This document shows, one piece after another, positions 16,274 through 25,834 of a DNA stretch of 35,386 nucleotides. This stretch comes from Bacteroidales bacterium (GTDB lineage Bacteria > Bacteroidota > Bacteroidia > Bacteroidales > Paludibacteraceae): the NCBI GenBank assembly GCA_030523485.1, contig JAUNIJ010000002.1, positions 1 through 35,386 on the forward strand, given 5' to 3'. The position numbers and the translations under genes were made by a program. The notes beneath the pieces were generated by a model, which worked only from the letters and a program-made list of their open reading frames with translations, was not told where the DNA came from and made no database searches. Numbering within the stretch: position 1 is the first letter of the stretch; each line of letters starts with the position of its first letter.

Positions 16274-17257
16274 TTATTTGCCTACGTGGAGAACGTTAGC
16301 TGCGCGTGGAGCCATTTTAGGAGCAGCAGCAGAATCGTCAGTTATGGTGATGTCGCCAGAGTAGTTGAGGGTGATTTGGCTACCGCAACCAGAAGTTACA
16401 GTACCCGAGATGGTGTAAGCACCAGTTGAACCACCGATGGTGAATGAACCACCAACCATGTACCAAACTTGTTGTACATAACCGCTATCATCCAAAACAG
16501 CAATTACTGATGGATAGAAAGAGCTGTTGTAGAAGAAACCAGGATAGAATGTGTTAGCAGCTTGTGAGGTAGCGCCGTTATAAGTACCTGTTGGTACTTC
16601 GGTTGCAGAAGAACCATTAGCAGCAAACATATTAATCATTGCATAGTAAGCGCCATCAAGTACGAGGATGTAAGCGTCTGAACCATAACCGGTGTTACCT
16701 TTGTAAGTTGCAGATACTGTTGTGAAGTTAGCAGTGAAAGTGGTTGGGTCCATTGATTCGTATGGATAAGCACCATTAGAGATTTCTACGTCACCAGTAC
16801 CTACATATGAAACAGAACCATCAGCAGAAGTGTAGACAACTTTGTAAGTTGTGCCTTCTTTAGAAATAACTAATGTACCGTCTTCGATAGCTACAGGATC
16901 ACCTTCAATAGAACCTTCAGCAAGTTCCATGATGCATGAGCCAGAACCGTTAGCATCACCAATAACGAATGTGCCAGCAGTGCCGTTTGAACTTGCTGTG
17001 TAAGTGCCAACGATGTCTTTTGAAGCAGCACAAAGGTCGAAAACTACATAAGCACCGTCGAGGTTGTCCAAATCTTGAATGAGTTGAACATAGTAGTTTA
17101 CTGTGCCATTTTGATAGTAATCACCATACCAAGCGATACCATAAATACCACATTCAACAGCATTTGCTGGTGTTGGTTCTGGTTCTGGTTCTGGGTTATC
17201 GCAAGATGCGAACAGAACTGTTACAGCTGCAAGTGCAGCAAAAAGGAATTTTTTCAT
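16274..17257 (-). CDS. Lipoprotein with two tandem copies of a beta-rich domain
   Basis: A 327-residue exported lipoprotein. MKKFLFAALAAVTVLFASC is a signal with lipobox FASC, followed by an acidic proline tether (NPEPEPEPTP). The mature part appears to be two related domains of about 115 residues. Domain 1 (about 38-155) runs VNYYVQLI, LDGAYVVFDL, VGTYTAS, AGTFVIGD, DGTLVISKEG and TYKVVYTS. Domain 2 (about 185-310) runs SDAYILVL, DGAYYAMINMF, PTGTYNGAT, GGSFTIGG and AYTISGTV, ending TLNYSGDITI. The upstream neighbour carries one copy of a similar layout. I do not recognise the family. The C-terminal tail (PKMAPRAANVLHVGK) is not a clear type IX secretion signal. Expression may come from the upstream gene's promoter or from a TATCTTTG box at 17309-17316. 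Confidence 0.75.
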   Translation of the reverse strand: MKKFLFAALAAVTVLFASCDNPEPEPEPTPANAVECGIYGIAWYGDYYQNGTVNYYVQLIQDLDNLDGAYVVFDLCAASKDIVGTYTASSNGTAGTFVIGDANGSGSCIMELAEGSIEGDPVAIEDGTLVISKEGTTYKVVYTSADGSVSYVGTGDVEISNGAYPYESMDPTTFTANFTTVSATYKGNTGYGSDAYILVLDGAYYAMINMFAANGSSATEVPTGTYNGATSQAANTFYPGFFYNSSFYPSVIAVLDDSGYVQQVWYMVGGSFTIGGSTGAYTISGTVTSGCGSQITLNYSGDITITDDSAAAPKMAPRAANVLHVGK

Positions 17258-17296: not shown

Positions 17297-17899
17297 TTAT
17301 TTTGAAATCAAAGATACAACTTTGTTGAGGTCTAAAACATCAACATGACGTTGAACTCCGTTTGCAGAAACTGATGATTCTGATTTGTCTTGGAACAAGA
17401 GTGCTCCTTCGTAACGGAATTTAACAAGTGTGGTGCCTGAGTAGATTACTGCGTCAATAGTGAATGTGTCACCAGATTTGCTGATTGTTACGGTGCCAGA
17501 GTCGAAGAGGTAACCCAAGCCTGTTGTTGCACTGTAGCCGTATGAACCCATGCCTTCTTCAAGGTGCTCTGCTGTGCCGTAAGTGATGGTACCAGCAGCA
17601 TAGTTGAAGTTTTTAACGATGGTATAAGTGCCTTCTTTTGGAAGAAGATTTTTGTTGCTTTCTGAGCTAAGGTCAAGCACATAGTAAGCACCTGAACGTA
17701 CTACTGAGTCAGCAGCATAGTCTTTGCTTTCGAAGCGTAATACGAAGTTGTAGCTTCCTGTTCCGAGGAGGTCGCCGAAATATTCACCACCTGCGAAGTT
17801 GGTTTCTACGCCATCATAAACTTCTGGTTCTTGTCCACAAGATGTGAAACCGAAAATTGTTGCGCATACTAAAAGAGCGCTTAGAACGATTTTTTTCAT
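17297..17899 (-). CDS. Single-domain lipoprotein related to its neighbour
   Basis: A 200-residue predicted lipoprotein: MKKIVLSALLVCATIFGFTSC is the signal with lipobox FTSC. One beta-rich domain follows with the same order of motifs as the neighbour's domains: SYNFVLRFES, SGAYYVLDLSS, PKEGTYTIV, AAGTITYG, SGTVTISKSGDTFTI and VKFRYEG. The C-terminal tail (residues about 175-200) is helical and basic or hydrophobic (HVDVLDLNKVVSLISK). It is the first gene of a likely two-gene unit, with 39 nt before the next ATG and a TATATTTG promoter upstream. Function is unknown; surface or periplasmic location is inferred from the lipobox only. Confidence 0.75.
   Translation of the reverse strand: MKKIVLSALLVCATIFGFTSCGQEPEVYDGVETNFAGGEYFGDLLGTGSYNFVLRFESKDYAADSVVRSGAYYVLDLSSESNKNLLPKEGTYTIVKNFNYAAGTITYGTAEHLEEGMGSYGYSATTGLGYLFDSGTVTISKSGDTFTIDAVIYSGTTLVKFRYEGALLFQDKSESSVSANGVQRHVDVLDLNKVVSLISK
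17309..17316 (-). promoter_or_regulatory. Possible internal -7 box for the two-domain lipoprotein
   Basis: The minus strand reads TATCTTTG inside the last codons of the one-domain gene, 51 nt before the ATG at 17257. It could drive the second gene separately, but the lack of a clear -33 element makes this uncertain. Confidence 0.3.
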
Positions 17900-18116: not shown

Positions 18117-19412
18117 CTATCGTGTTGTGAACCGCAAACCTCCTGAAAGACTGAAGAACAACGGATTGTCTGTTCTTAAGCTAGTTGGCTGCGGGTTTCG
18201 TGCATTTGGGATGTAGTAGGTAAGACCTGGTTCGATATAGAACGATAAACCTTTATACAATTTCAACGACACACCTAAATTACCTCCTACCGACCATTGC
18301 ATGCCTGGAACTTTGGTATGTGTTTTGTCGGACGAACCCACCCATTGGTTGTTTTCGTCCATAAACGATTTCTTTTCAACGCGTGTCAATCCTTTTTCTG
18401 CTTTTCCCCCCAACGAGACATAGAAGTTGATAAAGTTACGATTGATAATACGATAAGATATTTGGGCAGGGATGCCTAAATAGTGTAAGTCGTAGTCAGA
18501 TTGTACTGATGAGCGGGTGGATACGTTGTTTGTGGTGCGTTGCGAGTGCATGTAAGAGTAGTCGATACCAGTAATCACGTCCCAACGTTTTGCTATAGGT
18601 ATGGCTACCGACAAACCTAACGAGAAGGGGAGGTCATTTTGCATCTCTTCTTGTGTTTGAGGTGGCAAGTAAACGGGTCCATCTCCCGATTGATTGACGC
18701 TACTGATTTTATTTTGTTGCGTAACCATTTGATTACCTATTCGATCGTTTGCATTCAACGATGCGAGGAATCCTAATTGTACGGGTTGAGTGTTCGTTTT
18801 TATTTTGGTGTTTTTCTCGCTTTCTAACTGTCTACGAAGTTGTTCATCAGATTGATTGAGTAGCGATTCTGCTTCTGTTTCTGTGAGTGTTGCAATCGCT
18901 GTTTCAGAATCGTCTTGTTTGATATTGTCAGTGGTAGTGATGTTTTCAGTATTCGTTTGCACAGATTCTTTCTGTATGTCTGAGTGTGAAACTGTGCTTT
19001 CTATTTTTCGTTCGCCTATTGGTGTTACTACCGTTTTGCCAACAATGGCTTGTTTGGTAGTTTTGTTGGTGTTGTTTTGTGCTATATACCGTTCCAGGAC
19101 ATCTGTGTCAATCTGCTCATGTTTTTCCACTGCTCTGTTTTGGATTGTATCATCCGATTCTTGGTGTTCAGCTGTAAGCGTTGTTTGTGTTTCTACATTA
19201 TTCTTATTGTTGCTTTGTTTCCAAAGAACAGCAGACACAAGGCATATTACTATGCAAGCAGCAGCCGTCCATTTTATCCATAATGGTATGATGGTGCGCT
19301 TTGGCGTAGCAGGAAGGCGTTGTTCTAATTCTGCCCATCCGTTTTCAGGAATGGGGAGTTCAAAGTCATCCAGTTTTTCTTTGAGTATTTTCTTATATTC
19401 GTTATCTGTCAT
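18117..19412 (-). CDS. Dual-membrane-spanning anti-sigma factor (Dma-type)
   Basis: A 431-residue protein with three parts. A short cytosolic N-terminus (1-45; KLDDFELPIPENGWAELEQRL) resembles the sigma-binding helices of Bacteroidetes anti-sigma proteins. One transmembrane helix follows (about 46-64, KWTAAACIVICLVSAVLW), then a polar Gln/Thr/Asn/Glu-rich periplasmic linker (65-245). The last 180 residues (from LPFSLGLSVAIPIAKRW) are amphipathic strands of an outer-membrane beta-barrel ending FSLSGGLRFTTR. This inner-to-outer membrane layout matches the dual membrane-spanning anti-sigma (Dma) class described in Bacteroides thetaiotaomicron, where I recall a link to vesiculation. It starts 6 nt after the ECF sigma stop. 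The signal it senses is unknown. Confidence 0.85.
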   Translation of the reverse strand: MTDNEYKKILKEKLDDFELPIPENGWAELEQRLPATPKRTIIPLWIKWTAAACIVICLVSAVLWKQSNNKNNVETQTTLTAEHQESDDTIQNRAVEKHEQIDTDVLERYIAQNNTNKTTKQAIVGKTVVTPIGERKIESTVSHSDIQKESVQTNTENITTTDNIKQDDSETAIATLTETEAESLLNQSDEQLRRQLESEKNTKIKTNTQPVQLGFLASLNANDRIGNQMVTQQNKISSVNQSGDGPVYLPPQTQEEMQNDLPFSLGLSVAIPIAKRWDVITGIDYSYMHSQRTTNNVSTRSSVQSDYDLHYLGIPAQISYRIINRNFINFYVSLGGKAEKGLTRVEKKSFMDENNQWVGSSDKTHTKVPGMQWSVGGNLGVSLKLYKGLSFYIEPGLTYYIPNARNPQPTSLRTDNPLFFSLSGGLRFTTR

Positions 19413-19418
19413 TGGTGT

Positions 19419-19958
19419 CTAGCCTTTTTCTATCATTGTTCGCAACGTTTGCCTTGCGCGAGCATAGTGTGAGCGCACTGTGGCTTCGTTGATGTTAAGT
19501 TTATGAGCAATTTCTACCAAACTATAGCCTTCAATGGCATGTAGGTTGAAGACAGTGCGTTGATTTGCAGGCAAGCGCGTTATCATTTGTAATATTTCTT
19601 TTGCGCTGAGCTGCTCTATCTGATTGGGTTGTGAATCGTCGTACACAGCAAACATAGCTTCTTCATTGTCATCGAACACTAAGCGATTGCGTCGCAAGTG
19701 GTCGAGCGAAACGTTCACCATAATTTTCCTCATCCATCCTTCAAACGCTCCTTTGTTTTGGTATTGTTTGATGTTAGAGTAAATGCTGATGAACCCATCG
19801 TGCATCCAGTCTTGAGCTGTTTGTTTGTCGCCGCAATATCTCATACATACAACTAACATTTTGCCTGCAAACATCTCGTAGAGTGCTCGTTGTGCTTTAC
19901 GGTCATTTTTCAGGCATCCGTCAATAATTGATTGAAGGTTTTGCGGAGGATTCTCCAT
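19419..19958 (-). CDS. ECF RNA polymerase sigma factor
   Basis: A 179-residue sigma-70 family protein of the extracytoplasmic-function group. Region 2 spans about residues 20-90, with ALYEMFAGKMLVVCMRYCGD, the DWMHDGFISIYSNI core-binding segment and FEGWMRKIMVNVSLDHLRRN. Region 4 spans about 125-177, with LPANQRTVFNLHAIEGYSL and the helix-turn-helix EIAHKLNINEATVRSHYARAR that reads the -35 element. Regions 1 and 3 are absent, as expected. It is paired with the anti-sigma protein downstream and sits 36 nt after lpxB with no promoter visible between them, so it is probably expressed from the lpxB operon. Confidence 0.95.
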   Translation of the reverse strand: MENPPQNLQSIIDGCLKNDRKAQRALYEMFAGKMLVVCMRYCGDKQTAQDWMHDGFISIYSNIKQYQNKGAFEGWMRKIMVNVSLDHLRRNRLVFDDNEEAMFAVYDDSQPNQIEQLSAKEILQMITRLPANQRTVFNLHAIEGYSLVEIAHKLNINEATVRSHYARARQTLRTMIEKG

Positions 19959-19994
19959 CAGTCTGTTTGCTTTTTATAAAGATGAATTATGCAT

Positions 19995-21137
19995 TTAAAA
20001 CGTTGCTGTTTTGTCAACTCTTTTTTTCGTTTGGTGCAAACTGTTGATAATAGCTTTTGACGCACGTTCTGCAGTGTCTGGTTCGCCCAATTTTGCGGCT
20101 ATTACATCATAATCCGACAACATTTGTTGCTGTATGGCATTATTATATAATAGTGTATGCAGTTCGCGCACAATGTTTTCTTTTGTAAATTGATGTGCAA
20201 TTAATTCTTTTGCCACCTCTTTTTCGCCTATCAGATTCACCAACGACACGTAGGGAATCTTTATCAGTATTTTGCGAAGCAGAGAAGCGAAGCGTCCACC
20301 AAACACATGATAAACAACAATTTGTGGAGTTCTTAATAATGCTGTTTCTAATGTTGCGGTGCCAGAGTTCACTACAGCCACCGTGGCTGTTCTCACTGTT
20401 TCGTAAGTGTTATGCGATAGTTGTATGTCAGTGTCTTCACCAAGTATTTCACGATAATAAGCCTCATCAATAGAGGGGGCGGTGGTTACTACGATTTGAT
20501 AATCTGGGAACATTTTTGCTGCAGCAACCATAGTTTTCAAACACCCTTTAATTTCTTGTTTTCTACTTCCAGCTAACAAAGCGATGGTTGGTTTTGACGG
20601 GATGTTTGGTGTTGCTTGTTGTAAATAGTTGTCGATAGCATCCACCGTTGGATTTCCAACATAGTCGACAGCATAACCTTTTCCTGCAAAGTAAGCTGTC
20701 TCGAATGGAAAGATTGTGAACATCTTATCGACATATTTTTTTATTGATTTGATGCGCCAACTTTTCCACGCCCATAGTTTCGGAGCAATATAATAATATA
20801 CGGGTGTTTGTGGTAGGTGTTTTTTCACCCATTTAGCAATGCGAAGGTTAAAACTTGGATAATCGATTAAAATCACGACATCAGGTTTGTGTGTGCTAAG
20901 TGCTTGTTCGCAATCGCGAAAATTTTTCAGCACCTTATTCATATTCATCAACACATTGACGATGCCCATAAAAGCCATCTCACGATAGTCTTTGATTTGA
21001 ACACCACCAACTTGTTTCATCAAATCTCCACCAAGAAACACAAATTCTGCCGAGGCATCGTTACGTCGCAATGCTTTCATCAAATTGGCACCATGCATAT
21101 CGCCAGATGCCTCGCCAGCAATTAAAAAGTAACGCAT
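19995..21137 (-). CDS. lpxB: Lipid-A-disaccharide synthase
   Basis: A 380-residue glycosyltransferase of family GT19 that joins UDP-2,3-diacylglucosamine and lipid X to make the lipid A disaccharide at the inner membrane. The N-terminal signature MRYFLIAGEASGDMHGA is diagnostic. YYIAPKLWAWKSWR, FPFETAYF, YVGNPTVD, LLAGSRKQEI and VNSGTATLETAL (nucleotide-binding region) follow in the usual order. The ATG at 21137 is chosen over an upstream TTG at 21152 because it gives the family N-terminus and sits 7 nt after the preceding stop. surE and a small membrane protein lie upstream, and an ECF sigma downstream. Confidence 0.96.
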   Translation of the reverse strand: MRYFLIAGEASGDMHGANLMKALRRNDASAEFVFLGGDLMKQVGGVQIKDYREMAFMGIVNVLMNMNKVLKNFRDCEQALSTHKPDVVILIDYPSFNLRIAKWVKKHLPQTPVYYYIAPKLWAWKSWRIKSIKKYVDKMFTIFPFETAYFAGKGYAVDYVGNPTVDAIDNYLQQATPNIPSKPTIALLAGSRKQEIKGCLKTMVAAAKMFPDYQIVVTTAPSIDEAYYREILGEDTDIQLSHNTYETVRTATVAVVNSGTATLETALLRTPQIVVYHVFGGRFASLLRKILIKIPYVSLVNLIGEKEVAKELIAHQFTKENIVRELHTLLYNNAIQQQMLSDYDVIAAKLGEPDTAERASKAIINSLHQTKKRVDKTATF

Positions 21138-21144
21138 GAGATTT

Positions 21145-21453
21145 TTACACACCTATAGTAGAATAGATTAACAATGCTACCACGAAAAACATCATCGAGA
21201 GTATCATACCGCGACATGCATTCCAGTTTTCTGTTTTATTGAGGATGAATGCACCGATAAAATCGGGCACCATCGCAACAAAGCCAAACTTAACAGCCCA
21301 GCTTATACTGTGAGTAATGAGCTGTATACCGCCACTAAATCCATGGGTGTTGGGTGACAACGAGATGAACAACAAGCCAAAGACTATTGGAAGAATCAAG
21401 CCAAGTACAATGCCCACTACGACAGTATCGAAACGTTTTTTCTGTGTTGCCAT
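21145..21453 (-). CDS. Small membrane protein between surE and lpxB
   Basis: A 102-residue protein with about three transmembrane helices: residues about 9-31 (TVVVGIVLGLILPIVFGLLF), about 45-68 (SISWAVKFGFVAMVPDFIGAFIL), and about 80-100 (MILSMMFFVVALLIYSTIGV). The N-terminus is basic (MATQKKRF), suggesting a cytoplasmic start. I do not recognise a named family. It begins 1 nt after surE and ends 7 nt before lpxB, so it is translated as part of that unit. A role tied to lipid A or the envelope is only inferred from position. Confidence 0.8.
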   Translation of the reverse strand: MATQKKRFDTVVVGIVLGLILPIVFGLLFISLSPNTHGFSGGIQLITHSISWAVKFGFVAMVPDFIGAFILNKTENWNACRGMILSMMFFVVALLIYSTIGV

Positions 21454-21454
21454 C

Positions 21455-22213
21455 CTACGATAATCTTTGAGTTAATAATGGAATAGCATCATAACATGTC
21501 ATATCGGCATGCACTGGATTGACAGAGATAAAGCCATGTTGCAAAGCATATTCATCGGTGTCGGTTGCATCTGTTTCAACGTTTGAGAATTTACCCGTCA
21601 ACCAATAGCAGTCGTACCCACGAGGTGTTGGCGAAGCCATAAACTCTTCGCTCCATTGTCCACTTGCTTGACGACAAACACGAATGCCTTTAATGGGACC
21701 GTCCTTTGGAGCATTAACGTTTAGACAAATACCCGAAGGCAATGCGTTGAAATATACATCCTCCAAAATTTTTGCAAATGCCTCTTTCACATAATCGAAG
21801 TCAGCTTGAAGGTCGTGATTACATATGGAAAGTCCGACAGCAGGGACACCATACAAACATCCCTCAATGGCGGCTCCCATGGTGCCAGAATAAATCACAT
21901 TGATAGAAGAGTTCGAACCGTGGTTAATGCCAGAAATCACCATGCGTGGACGCTCCCAATTGGGTACGACACCACTAAACGCAAGCTTCACACAGTCGAC
22001 AGGCGTGCCACTACAAGCATATATTTCTACTCCATCTTCTTGTTGAATTGGATGAAATACAATAGGATTATTAACTGACAACGCACTCGATTGTCCCGAA
22101 CGCGGACCATCAGGAGCCATCACAACGACACGGTCATCTAAACGTTTTGCCAACTCCACTGCCACACCAATGCCTTTAGCTTGGTAGCCATCGTCGTTTG
22201 TTATGAGTATCAT
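21455..22213 (-). CDS. surE: 5'/3'-nucleotidase SurE
   Basis: A 252-residue metal-dependent nucleoside monophosphate phosphatase of the SurE family, acting in nucleotide salvage and stationary-phase survival. The N-terminal MILITNDDGYQAKGI holds the metal-binding Asp pair (Asp7-Asp8). The PDGPRSGQSSALSV segment supplies the conserved Ser, and VISGINHGSN supplies the metal-binding Asn in the next loop. YSGTMGAAIEG and the CLNVNAPKDGPIKGI segment complete the fold. It follows the permease gene after 2 nt. The surE-lpxB neighbourhood recurs in Bacteroidetes as far as I recall. Confidence 0.95.
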   Translation of the reverse strand: MILITNDDGYQAKGIGVAVELAKRLDDRVVVMAPDGPRSGQSSALSVNNPIVFHPIQQEDGVEIYACSGTPVDCVKLAFSGVVPNWERPRMVISGINHGSNSSINVIYSGTMGAAIEGCLYGVPAVGLSICNHDLQADFDYVKEAFAKILEDVYFNALPSGICLNVNAPKDGPIKGIRVCRQASGQWSEEFMASPTPRGYDCYWLTGKFSNVETDATDTDEYALQHGFISVNPVHADMTCYDAIPLLTQRLS

Positions 22214-22960: not shown

Positions 22961-25834
22961 CTATTTTTTCTTCGTTTTATTTTTTCCTACCAACACCTCT
23001 CGAAGGAATTGTGCTGTAAGGCTTTTTTTCGATTTTATCACTTTTTCTGGCGTACCTTCTGCCACGATTTTACCACCCTCACGACCCGCGCCGGGACCGA
23101 GGTCTACGAGATGGTCGGCACTTTTTATCACATCGAGATTGTGTTCTATTACCACCACGGTGTTACCACGATCGACTAACGTATTGATAATGTCAAGCAA
23201 AAGGTTGATATCTTCAAAATGAAGACCTGTGGTTGGTTCGTCGAGTATATATAATGTCTTTCCCGTGTCGCGTTTCGCCAACTCGGTAGCAAGTTTTAAA
23301 CGCTGACTCTCACCACCCGATAACGTAGTAGCGGCTTGGCCCAATTTGATGTAACCTAATCCAACGCGTTGCATCATGGCTAGTTTGTGCACAAACGATG
23401 GCATATTCTCAAAAAACTCTACAGCTTGATTAAATGTCATATCGAGCACATCGGCAATCGATTTGCCTTTGAAACGCACTTCTAAAGTCTCACGATTGTA
23501 ACGACTGCCTCGGCACGCTTCGCACTTCACCATCACATTTGGCAAGAAATTCATTTCCAATTGTTTGTAACCGGTGCCACGACACACTTCACAACGTCCG
23601 CCAGCGGTATTGAAAGAAAAGCGTCCGCCTTTGTAGCCTCTCATTTTGGCTTCGGTAAGCGAGGCAAAAAGATTTCTTATATCAGTAAACACACCGGAAT
23701 AAGTCACAGGATTGGAGCGCGGCGTACGACCTATGGGCGATTGGTCGACCACAATAACTTTGTCGATATTGTCTAAACCTTCTAACTTTTCAAATGGGAG
23801 TGCTTCACGTGTAGAACGATAAAAATGTTGTGCTAAAGCAGGATATAGTGTGCCACTGATGAGCGACGATTTGCCACTGCCACTTACACCCGTTATGCAG
23901 ATAAGTTTGCCCAACGGAAGCGAGAGTGTCACCTTTTTCAGGTTGTGACCTGTGGCACCCACCAGCACTAAATTTTTGCCATTGCCTTCACGGCGTGTTG
24001 TTGGCACCGCTATGGTTTTTACACCGTTCAAATAGTTTGCCGTCAGTGTTTTTGCTTTATGCATTTCTCGAGGTGTGCCTTGAAACACCACTTCACCGCC
24101 CAATCGACCTGCCCCTGGTCCGAGGTCAACAATATAATCTGCTTCACGCATCATCTCTTCGTCATGCTCCACCACTACTACTGTGTTACCATGATCACGA
24201 AGTTCTTTTAACGAAGCAATTAGTTGACGATTGTCTTTCTGATGCAGACCGATGCTTGGCTCGTCGAGTATATATAATACGTTTACTAACTGCGACCCTA
24301 TTTGTGTTGCTAAGTGTATGCGTTGACTTTCACCACCCGATAACGTAGCGGTGCCGCGAGATAACGAGAGATAACCCAAACCAACCTCTTCGAGGAATTG
24401 AAGACGAGTAGATATTTCTTTTATTATCTCAGTGGCTATGGTTTGCTGACGTTCGTCAAGCAACTCATGCAAATTATTAATCCACTCACGAAGTTCGATG
24501 ATATCCATTCGACATAGCTCTGCAATATTCTTACCTCCCACACGATAATGAAGTGCTTCGCGATTCAAACGGTCGCCATGACATTCCGGACAAGTGGTAG
24601 TGTGATAGAACTGCTCTGCCCAACGTTGTTCTTTTGTCGATGTGCTTTCTTCTTGCTGAATTTCTAGATAACGCACTAAACCTTCATAATTTGCCATCAT
24701 CATGCCACCTGGTATGTTGTTACCTTTGACCATCAACGCTTCTGGCGAGCCATAAAAGATTTCATTCATTGCTTCTGGTGGCAATTGTTTCACTGGAGTG
24801 TCGATTGTAAAATCGTATTTCTCAGCAATTGCAGCCAACTGGCGGAAGATAAAAGTGGCTTTCTCTTTTCCTAATGGTGCTATGGCGCCTTGCGATATCG
24901 ATAGTTCATTATTAGGAATCAGTTTTGTAATGTCGACCATCGACACTTCGCCCAAACCATTACAACAGGAGCATGCCCCCTTAGGAGTGTTGAATGAGAA
25001 ATTATGTGGTGCAGGCTCTGCATACGATAAGCCCGTAACCGGACACGACAGATGAGTAGAGAAGTAACGAGGTTCAGCTGATTTCGGTTGCACCATCACC
25101 ACACCATTACCATGTCGCAATGCTGTTTGTAAGCTACGTTTCAGTCGTGTAGTCTCACGATGTTCTATGATGAGTTTGTCGACAACCAACTCGATATCGT
25201 GATTTTTATAACGGTCTACTTTCATGCTTGGTGTGATTTCCAAGACTTCACCATCAACACGAACATTAAGGAATCCTTTGCGGCGAAGACTCTCAAATAG
25301 TTCGCGATAGTGTCCCTTACGTCCCTTAACAATTGGTGCAAGGAGCATGCATGGTTGCAACGTGTAAAGTTTGAATATCAGTTCGATAATCTGCTCTTCG
25401 GTGTAACGAACCATTTTTTCGCCACTGAGATAGGAGTAAGCCTCTCCAACTCGCGCAAAAAGAAGACGTAGAAAGTCGGCAATTTCCGTCACAGTACCAA
25501 CGGTTGAACGCGGACTTTTGTTCGTTGTCTTTTGTTCGATTGCAATAACTGGTGACAGTCCTTGAATATCATCAACATCAGGTCGCTCCATATGACCCAT
25601 GAAATGACGTGCATAGGCAGAGAATGTTTCGATATAGCGTCGCGATGCCTCAGCATATAATGTGTCGAAAGCTAGCGACGACTTACCGCTACCACTACGA
25701 CCGGTGATGACCGACAGTTTATAGAGTGGTATCGCTACATCAATATTCTTTAAGTTGTTCACTCTTGCACCATGCACTGTAAGCCATGGTGTTGCCGCAA
25801 TTGCGTTATCTTGTTGTTTGGTCTCTTTTCCCAT
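22961..25834 (-). CDS. uvrA: Excinuclease ABC subunit UvrA, canonical-type paralogue
   Basis: A 957-residue UvrA with both ABC cassettes intact: Walker [10 protein letters not shown] near residue 48, zinc module 1 (CSCCNG, then CPECHGD), signature LSGGESQR near 500, second Walker [10 protein letters not shown] near 651, zinc module 2 ([14 protein letters not shown]) near 748, and second signature LSGGESQR near 840 with LDEPTTGLH. The UvrB-binding region is canonical ([19 protein letters not shown]), so this is the better candidate for the main nucleotide-excision-repair protein. The ATG at 25834 is chosen because the TATCTTTG promoter box at 25859-25866 overlaps the longer frame's start. It heads a seven-gene directon ending with the anti-sigma gene. 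Confidence 0.95.

Follow-up and report, generated by a model that had tools for sequence, protein, structure and literature searches.

A Das/Dma-like sigma and anti-sigma pair behind lpxB in Paludibacteraceae, with predicted promoters at its own genes and at nigD and, in sister genera, at lpxD

Known dual-membrane sensors and the locus behind lpxB

In the Das1/Dma1 and Das2/Dma2 systems, an ECF21 sigma factor is paired with a dual membrane-spanning anti-sigma factor, and Das1/Dma1 of Bacteroides thetaiotaomicron controls nigD1 (PMC13088901). The regulon of EcfO includes three nigD genes, NigD1 being the target of Das1 (PMC13088901, PMC13114119). In Phocaeicola vulgatus, loss of the anti-sigma factor raises nigD expression and lengthens the O-antigen (PMC9308784, PMC13114119), and the sigma gene is upregulated 33-fold in envelope stress (PMC9308784). 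In Escherichia coli, lpxA, lpxB, and lpxD are transcribed by sigma E (PMC2215328). Little is known of the signals and targets of Dma-type anti-sigma factors, which form a recent and unusual class; with a defined promoter and conserved targets, the regulon would become predictable and testable genome by genome, and there would be a way into the function of NigD proteins.

The stretch of DNA analyzed here (the window) is an entire contig of 35,386 nt from a gut-type bacterium, the parent assembly comprising 1.8 Mb in 189 contigs. Its minus strand carries a series consisting of surE, a gene for a small membrane protein, lpxB, an ECF sigma gene, and an anti-sigma gene (Table 1). Our preferred reading, to which we give a probability of roughly three in four, is that the last two genes encode an outer-membrane stress switch of the Das/Dma type (EcfO/Reo type) that settled behind lpxB and would act on its own promoter, on a nigD promoter and, in six sister genera, on the lpxD gene cluster.

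Table 1 Coordinates of the features of the lpxB locus in the window and the basis of their assignment
Feature	Position	Strand	Basis
surE	21455..22213	-	PF01975, E 1e-56
Small membrane protein between surE and lpxB, weakly CarS-like	21145..21453	-	PF01864, 20.9 bits, below the cut-off of 22; position kept in relatives
lpxB, lipid-A-disaccharide synthase	19995..21137	-	PF02684, 275 bits, E 1.5e-81; TIGR00215, 244 bits, cut-off 190
-35 element GCAACG	20001..20006	-	Within the final lpxB codons ACA GCA ACG TTT TAA; conserved upstream of the sigma gene
-10 element CATCTTTAT	19976..19984	-	16 bp past the -35 element and 17 nt ahead of the sigma ATG, in the 36-nt gap
ECF sigma factor, 179 aa, Das/EcfO-like	19419..19958	-	Sigma70_r2, E 1.1e-13; Sigma70_r4_2, E 1.6e-16; tree with relatives
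Anti-sigma factor, Dma/Reo-like, dual-membrane, 431 aa	18117..19412	-	OMP_b-brl_2, 36.8 bits, cut-off 27; AlphaFold model; homologues
Candidate inner-membrane helix of the anti-sigma factor (residues 44-68)	19209..19283	-	AlphaFold model
Eight-strand outer-membrane barrel of the anti-sigma factor (residues 212-430)	18123..18779	-	Pfam, AlphaFold model, Foldseek

The layout given in the first-pass annotation, with lpxB, sigma, and anti-sigma genes in one direction and separated by gaps of 36 and 6 nt, agrees with the coordinates and profile matches. LpxB is full-length and scores above the curated TIGR00215 cut-off. The sigma protein consists of regions 2 and 4 only, in about 180 residues, as expected of an ECF sigma factor, and its NCBIfam matches are to general ECF models only. 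The weakly CarS-like small membrane protein belongs to the upstream gene cluster; the order surE-(carS-like)-lpxB is widely conserved across the bacterial order, in which surE-lpxB is old.

The anti-sigma gene lies beside the ECF sigma gene on the same strand, and its product has the predicted anatomy of a Dma protein, with a cytosolic N-terminus, one membrane helix, a disordered tether, and a C-terminal barrel, so that the earlier assignment to this type holds by Pfam, AlphaFold, and Foldseek. In the AlphaFold model, which was built from 12 related proteins and has a moderate overall pLDDT of 64 (barrel blocks mostly 70-93), helices at residues 3-15 and 25-32 are followed by the hydrophobic helix, a low-confidence tether at about residues 68-173, a helix at residues 178-201, and the eight strands. 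Foldseek neighbors of the barrel are the small solved barrels OmpA, OmpW, OmpX, and Ail. RseA has no barrel, and no match of the window protein to an RseA model was found in Pfam or NCBIfam at E values up to 0.1, the barrel being found instead.

The pair thus resembles Das/Dma in having a sigma gene followed by an anti-sigma gene of this anatomy, and it resembles Das1 in the predicted targeting of a NigD-family lipoprotein, a trait that Das2 does not share. It differs from Das/Dma in being linked to lpxB and in the predicted promoter that also precedes lpxD in sister genera. Members of the Dma family bind and inhibit their sigma factor and their loss raises vesiculation; the regulatory role of the window pair is predicted from sequence. 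The EcfO/Reo systems of P. vulgatus and Bacteroides fragilis likewise have a barrel-bearing anti-sigma factor and, for EcfO, nigD in the regulon and an LPS phenotype; what has been published ties them to the length of the O-antigen and to neither lpxD nor lpxB, and a location next to lpxB is not reported in the portions of that literature accessible to us. With E. coli sigma E (RpoE/RseA) the likeness, that of an envelope-stress ECF sigma factor acting on lpx genes, is a functional analogy and not kinship, since the anti-sigma factor is of unrelated architecture and the promoter sequence is another one. Dma3 of B. thetaiotaomicron has the same barrel type, but it is fused, unlike the two separate proteins of the window. 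Fused sigma-anti-sigma open reading frames of about 575-595 aa were observed in Muribaculaceae/Prevotellaceae MAGs (L147 4768-6519, L166 3224-5011, L149, L154, L162, and others); their N-terminal part comprises ECF regions 2 and 4, a hydrophobic helix and the anti-sigma barrel are also present, and they resemble Dma3 (PMC13088901).

The promoter between lpxB and the sigma gene

A two-part ECF-type promoter, CAGCAACG-16-CATCTTTAT (GCAACG-16-CATC), was found at positions 20008-19976 of the minus strand, lying partly within lpxB. The first-pass annotation had seen no promoter between lpxB and the sigma gene and had concluded that the genes are co-transcribed, an inference that fails because a promoter conserved across genera precedes the sigma gene. 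The window promoter has a matrix score of 22.9, the second-best site of the window (17.5) being located within an unrelated long open reading frame. Alignment of the lpxB-sigma regions gave the consensus (A/T)TGCAAC(G/A)TTT, 15-16 bp, C(A/G)TC(T/A). A promoter upstream of the sigma gene was present in 16 of the 18 genomes with the lpxB-linked pair, against 0.035 genomes expected from dinucleotide shuffles (200 shuffles, with a maximum of one genome carrying a site); species counts here and throughout are not phylogenetically independent. Among the linked genomes, G020 has no clear site before the sigma gene, and in G001, the sister species of the window's organism, the -10 element is degenerate (CTTC). 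Pairs located away from lpxB, as well as homologous sigma genes of other families in the order, are preceded by an identical or closely related site. The site looks like an autoregulatory ECF promoter, and the pair is probably autoregulated.

No terminator-like site was found on the minus strand between lpxB and the sigma gene, so that read-through from lpxB is possible; of the independent promoter and terminator that, according to the first-pass annotation, would speak against a joint operon, the promoter is present and the terminator was not detected. No ECF site was found in the neighborhoods scanned ahead of lpxB, surE, or two lipoprotein genes downstream of the anti-sigma gene, and none precedes the orthologues of these lipoprotein genes in G001. 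A scan with the sigma-70 consensus returned 18 promoter-like sites, against 16.7 expected. Because it sits in a long coding open reading frame, a motif-like site at 23343-23374, to which a match in L138 is related, was regarded as coding, and in-frame coding sites elsewhere (for example in L170, L172, and L240) were taken as chance occurrences.

The two downstream lipoprotein genes (17297-17899 and 16274-17257, minus strand) begin 218 nt beyond the anti-sigma gene, and a -7 box of the Bacteroidota type, TATATTTG, lies near them at 17979-17972. Their orthologues occupy the equivalent place in G001, and additional tandem copies of the second were observed (L138).

Adjacency to lpxB and the predicted lipid A link

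Within the Paludibacteraceae, lpxB was detectable in 334 of 358 genomes and an anti-sigma match at 1e-20 in 83. The first-pass annotation had left it to be seen whether the arrangement recurs in relatives or is unique to this genome: the sigma and anti-sigma genes lie directly behind lpxB in 18 species of seven Paludibacteraceae genera, which shows that the adjacency is no quirk of a single genome. lpxB is not followed by an ECF gene in g2, g24, and others, where a related pair occupies another place. In the sigma tree, the lpxB-linked sequences fall into two clades with about three changes of the adjacency label overall, a pattern as compatible with a single gain and subsequent losses as with two separate gains.

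When the sigma gene itself is left aside, exact promoter sites in the 18 linked genomes lie ahead of lpxD (four genomes from three genera) and ahead of small lipoprotein genes. Using a matrix built from the sigma promoters alone, for which 0.7% of random windows score at least 12, an lpxD upstream score of at least 12 was reached in 14 of 17 genomes with the lpxB linkage, compared with 1 of 20 from the rest of the family (Fisher 1.5e-6, uncorrected for kinship; 6 of 7 versus 1 of 17 when counted by genus). The non-linked genome G007, which scores 18.6 upstream of lpxD, is an exception. The gene following lpxD is an lpxC/fabZ fusion, and in the window's genome an lpxA-like hexapeptide gene comes next. 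The lpxD-lpxC/fabZ-lpxA cluster is suggested by these sites as a predicted regulon of the switch in sister genera, and hence as a new predicted target; in the literature, we found no open paper that connects lpxB or lpxD of Bacteroidota with an ECF sigma factor. In the window's own genus, no site was found before lpxD in the 4.1-4.8 kb scanned in its two species (G000 and G001), in both of which an HD-domain gene upstream abuts lpxD at a distance of 4-10 nt, and a lipid A output is thus unsupported in the window's own organism. The link between sigma output and lipid A supply proposed at the outset therefore finds support through the lpxD site in six of the seven lpxB-linked genera, but neither through lpxB itself nor in the window's genus.

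Whether the position behind lpxB has a regulatory meaning is a separate question. The pair may have been inserted there together with its promoter in an ancestor and kept by descent, the position being without regulatory significance, and we consider the chances of this only a little short of even. It is a self-contained cassette with its own promoter, equivalent cassettes occupy different positions in g2, g24, and other families, and the sigma tree asks for few changes of adjacency. Furthermore, two species of g20, G264 and G266, carry the pair and lpxB on different contigs and yet have a variant of the site before lpxD, which indicates that adjacency to lpxB is unnecessary for lpxD control. 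Against mere descent, the arrangement was kept across seven genera despite divergence of the anti-sigma factor to 22-49% identity, and the lpxD site goes with the lpxB-linked clade, which together make a functional tie to lipid A at least plausible. A passive origin of the position is compatible with the preferred reading of the pair as an outer-membrane stress switch.

The same adjacency could mean that the pair is expressed mainly as the tail of an lpxB operon, so that the supply of the lipid A enzyme sets the supply of the sigma factor. The retention of the adjacency in seven genera and the 36-nt gap lacking a terminator-like site on the minus strand are in keeping with this idea, but it is unlikely given the conserved ECF-type promoter ahead of the sigma gene, the variation of the lpxB-sigma gap from 0 to 236 nt among linked genomes with the promoter as the only conserved element in between, and the homologous pairs elsewhere that have retained the promoter and not lpxB.

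Starting again from the stress switch, a further-reaching version is conceivable, to which we lean slightly less than to its opposite: the lpxB-linked Das/Dma clade would be the Bacteroidota counterpart of sigma E, in which a barrel reads the outer membrane directly and the sigma factor, its gene anchored behind lpxB, raises lpxD, lpxC/fabZ, and lpxA together with NigD. If the lipid A target is real, Bacteroidota would have reached the sigma E logic of E. coli with an unrelated sensor.

NigD-family and other predicted targets

In the window's genome, a NigD1/NigD2-family gene (NF051862, 87 bits, cut-off 60) is preceded at 17 nt by a site that scores only moderately (10.7 to 15.3 across the matrices used), and a site likewise precedes a NigD-family gene in the sister species. 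Other intergenic sites in the window's genome were found before a TIGR04134 lipoprotein gene and a small lipoprotein gene. A relaxed search located the site 30-110 nt before NigD1/NigD2-family lipoprotein genes in g33 and g20, the g15 match falling below the cut-off; further genes behind a site encode radical-SAM-associated lipoproteins and small secreted, partly barrel-like proteins. NigD is encoded by 14 of 15 genomes with the lpxB-linked pair, compared with 1 of 12 in which the pair is absent, and nigD is a direct or near neighbor of a homologous pair in G007, G038, G044, and G057. It is this promoter site and this co-occurrence that point to a regulon with a NigD-family lipoprotein, as in systems of the Das1/EcfO type. 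On nigD upstream regions outside the Paludibacteraceae the matrix matches weakly, and the motif is therefore not claimed for nigD there.

It is very improbable that another ECF sigma factor uses the GCAACG-16-CRTC sites and that their autoregulatory look is a coincidence: Bacteroidota genomes do hold many ECF sigma factors and the pairing of sigma and site is predicted here, but throughout the order the site goes along with this sigma family, and it precedes nigD, a known target of Das/EcfO-type factors.

For the stress switch we propose the following mechanism. The N-terminal helices of the anti-sigma factor would hold the sigma factor at the inner membrane, and the tether and the outer-membrane barrel would make this hold depend on the condition of the outer membrane; a disturbance there would release the sigma factor, as the anatomy and the published relatives suggest. 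The freed factor would then transcribe from GCAACG-16-CRTC promoters, its first output presumably being its own gene pair from the promoter that overlaps the last codons of lpxB, whereas basal expression may stem from surE-lpxB read-through. Further outputs would be lipoproteins, namely the NigD-family one and other small ones, as well as small barrel-like proteins that are secreted. The lpxD-lpxC/fabZ-lpxA cluster, which comprises committed lipid A genes, would also be raised in the six sister genera. The P. vulgatus data, with a longer O-antigen upon loss of the anti-sigma factor and a 33-fold rise of the sigma gene, fit this mechanism. Judged by its predicted features, the lpxB-linked pair is a variant within a known family of sensors; its promoter can be tested, and one of its predicted targets is new.

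Several additional sites were observed. In the sister species, a secA-like gene has a good match to the ECF promoter about 27-30 nt ahead of it (G001:C17:8755-8783; L265 and L314), for which no equivalent was seen in other genomes. Orthologous lipoproteins of about 268 aa with an ECF site upstream and no Pfam match are encoded in two g33 species (L187 579-1382 and L188 581-1387). In g20 (G263, G264, G265, and G266; L320-L333), the sites are more numerous, have a 15-bp spacer and CGTCTT, and lie before genes for lipoproteins and for small proteins that are secreted, pointing to an expansion of the regulon.
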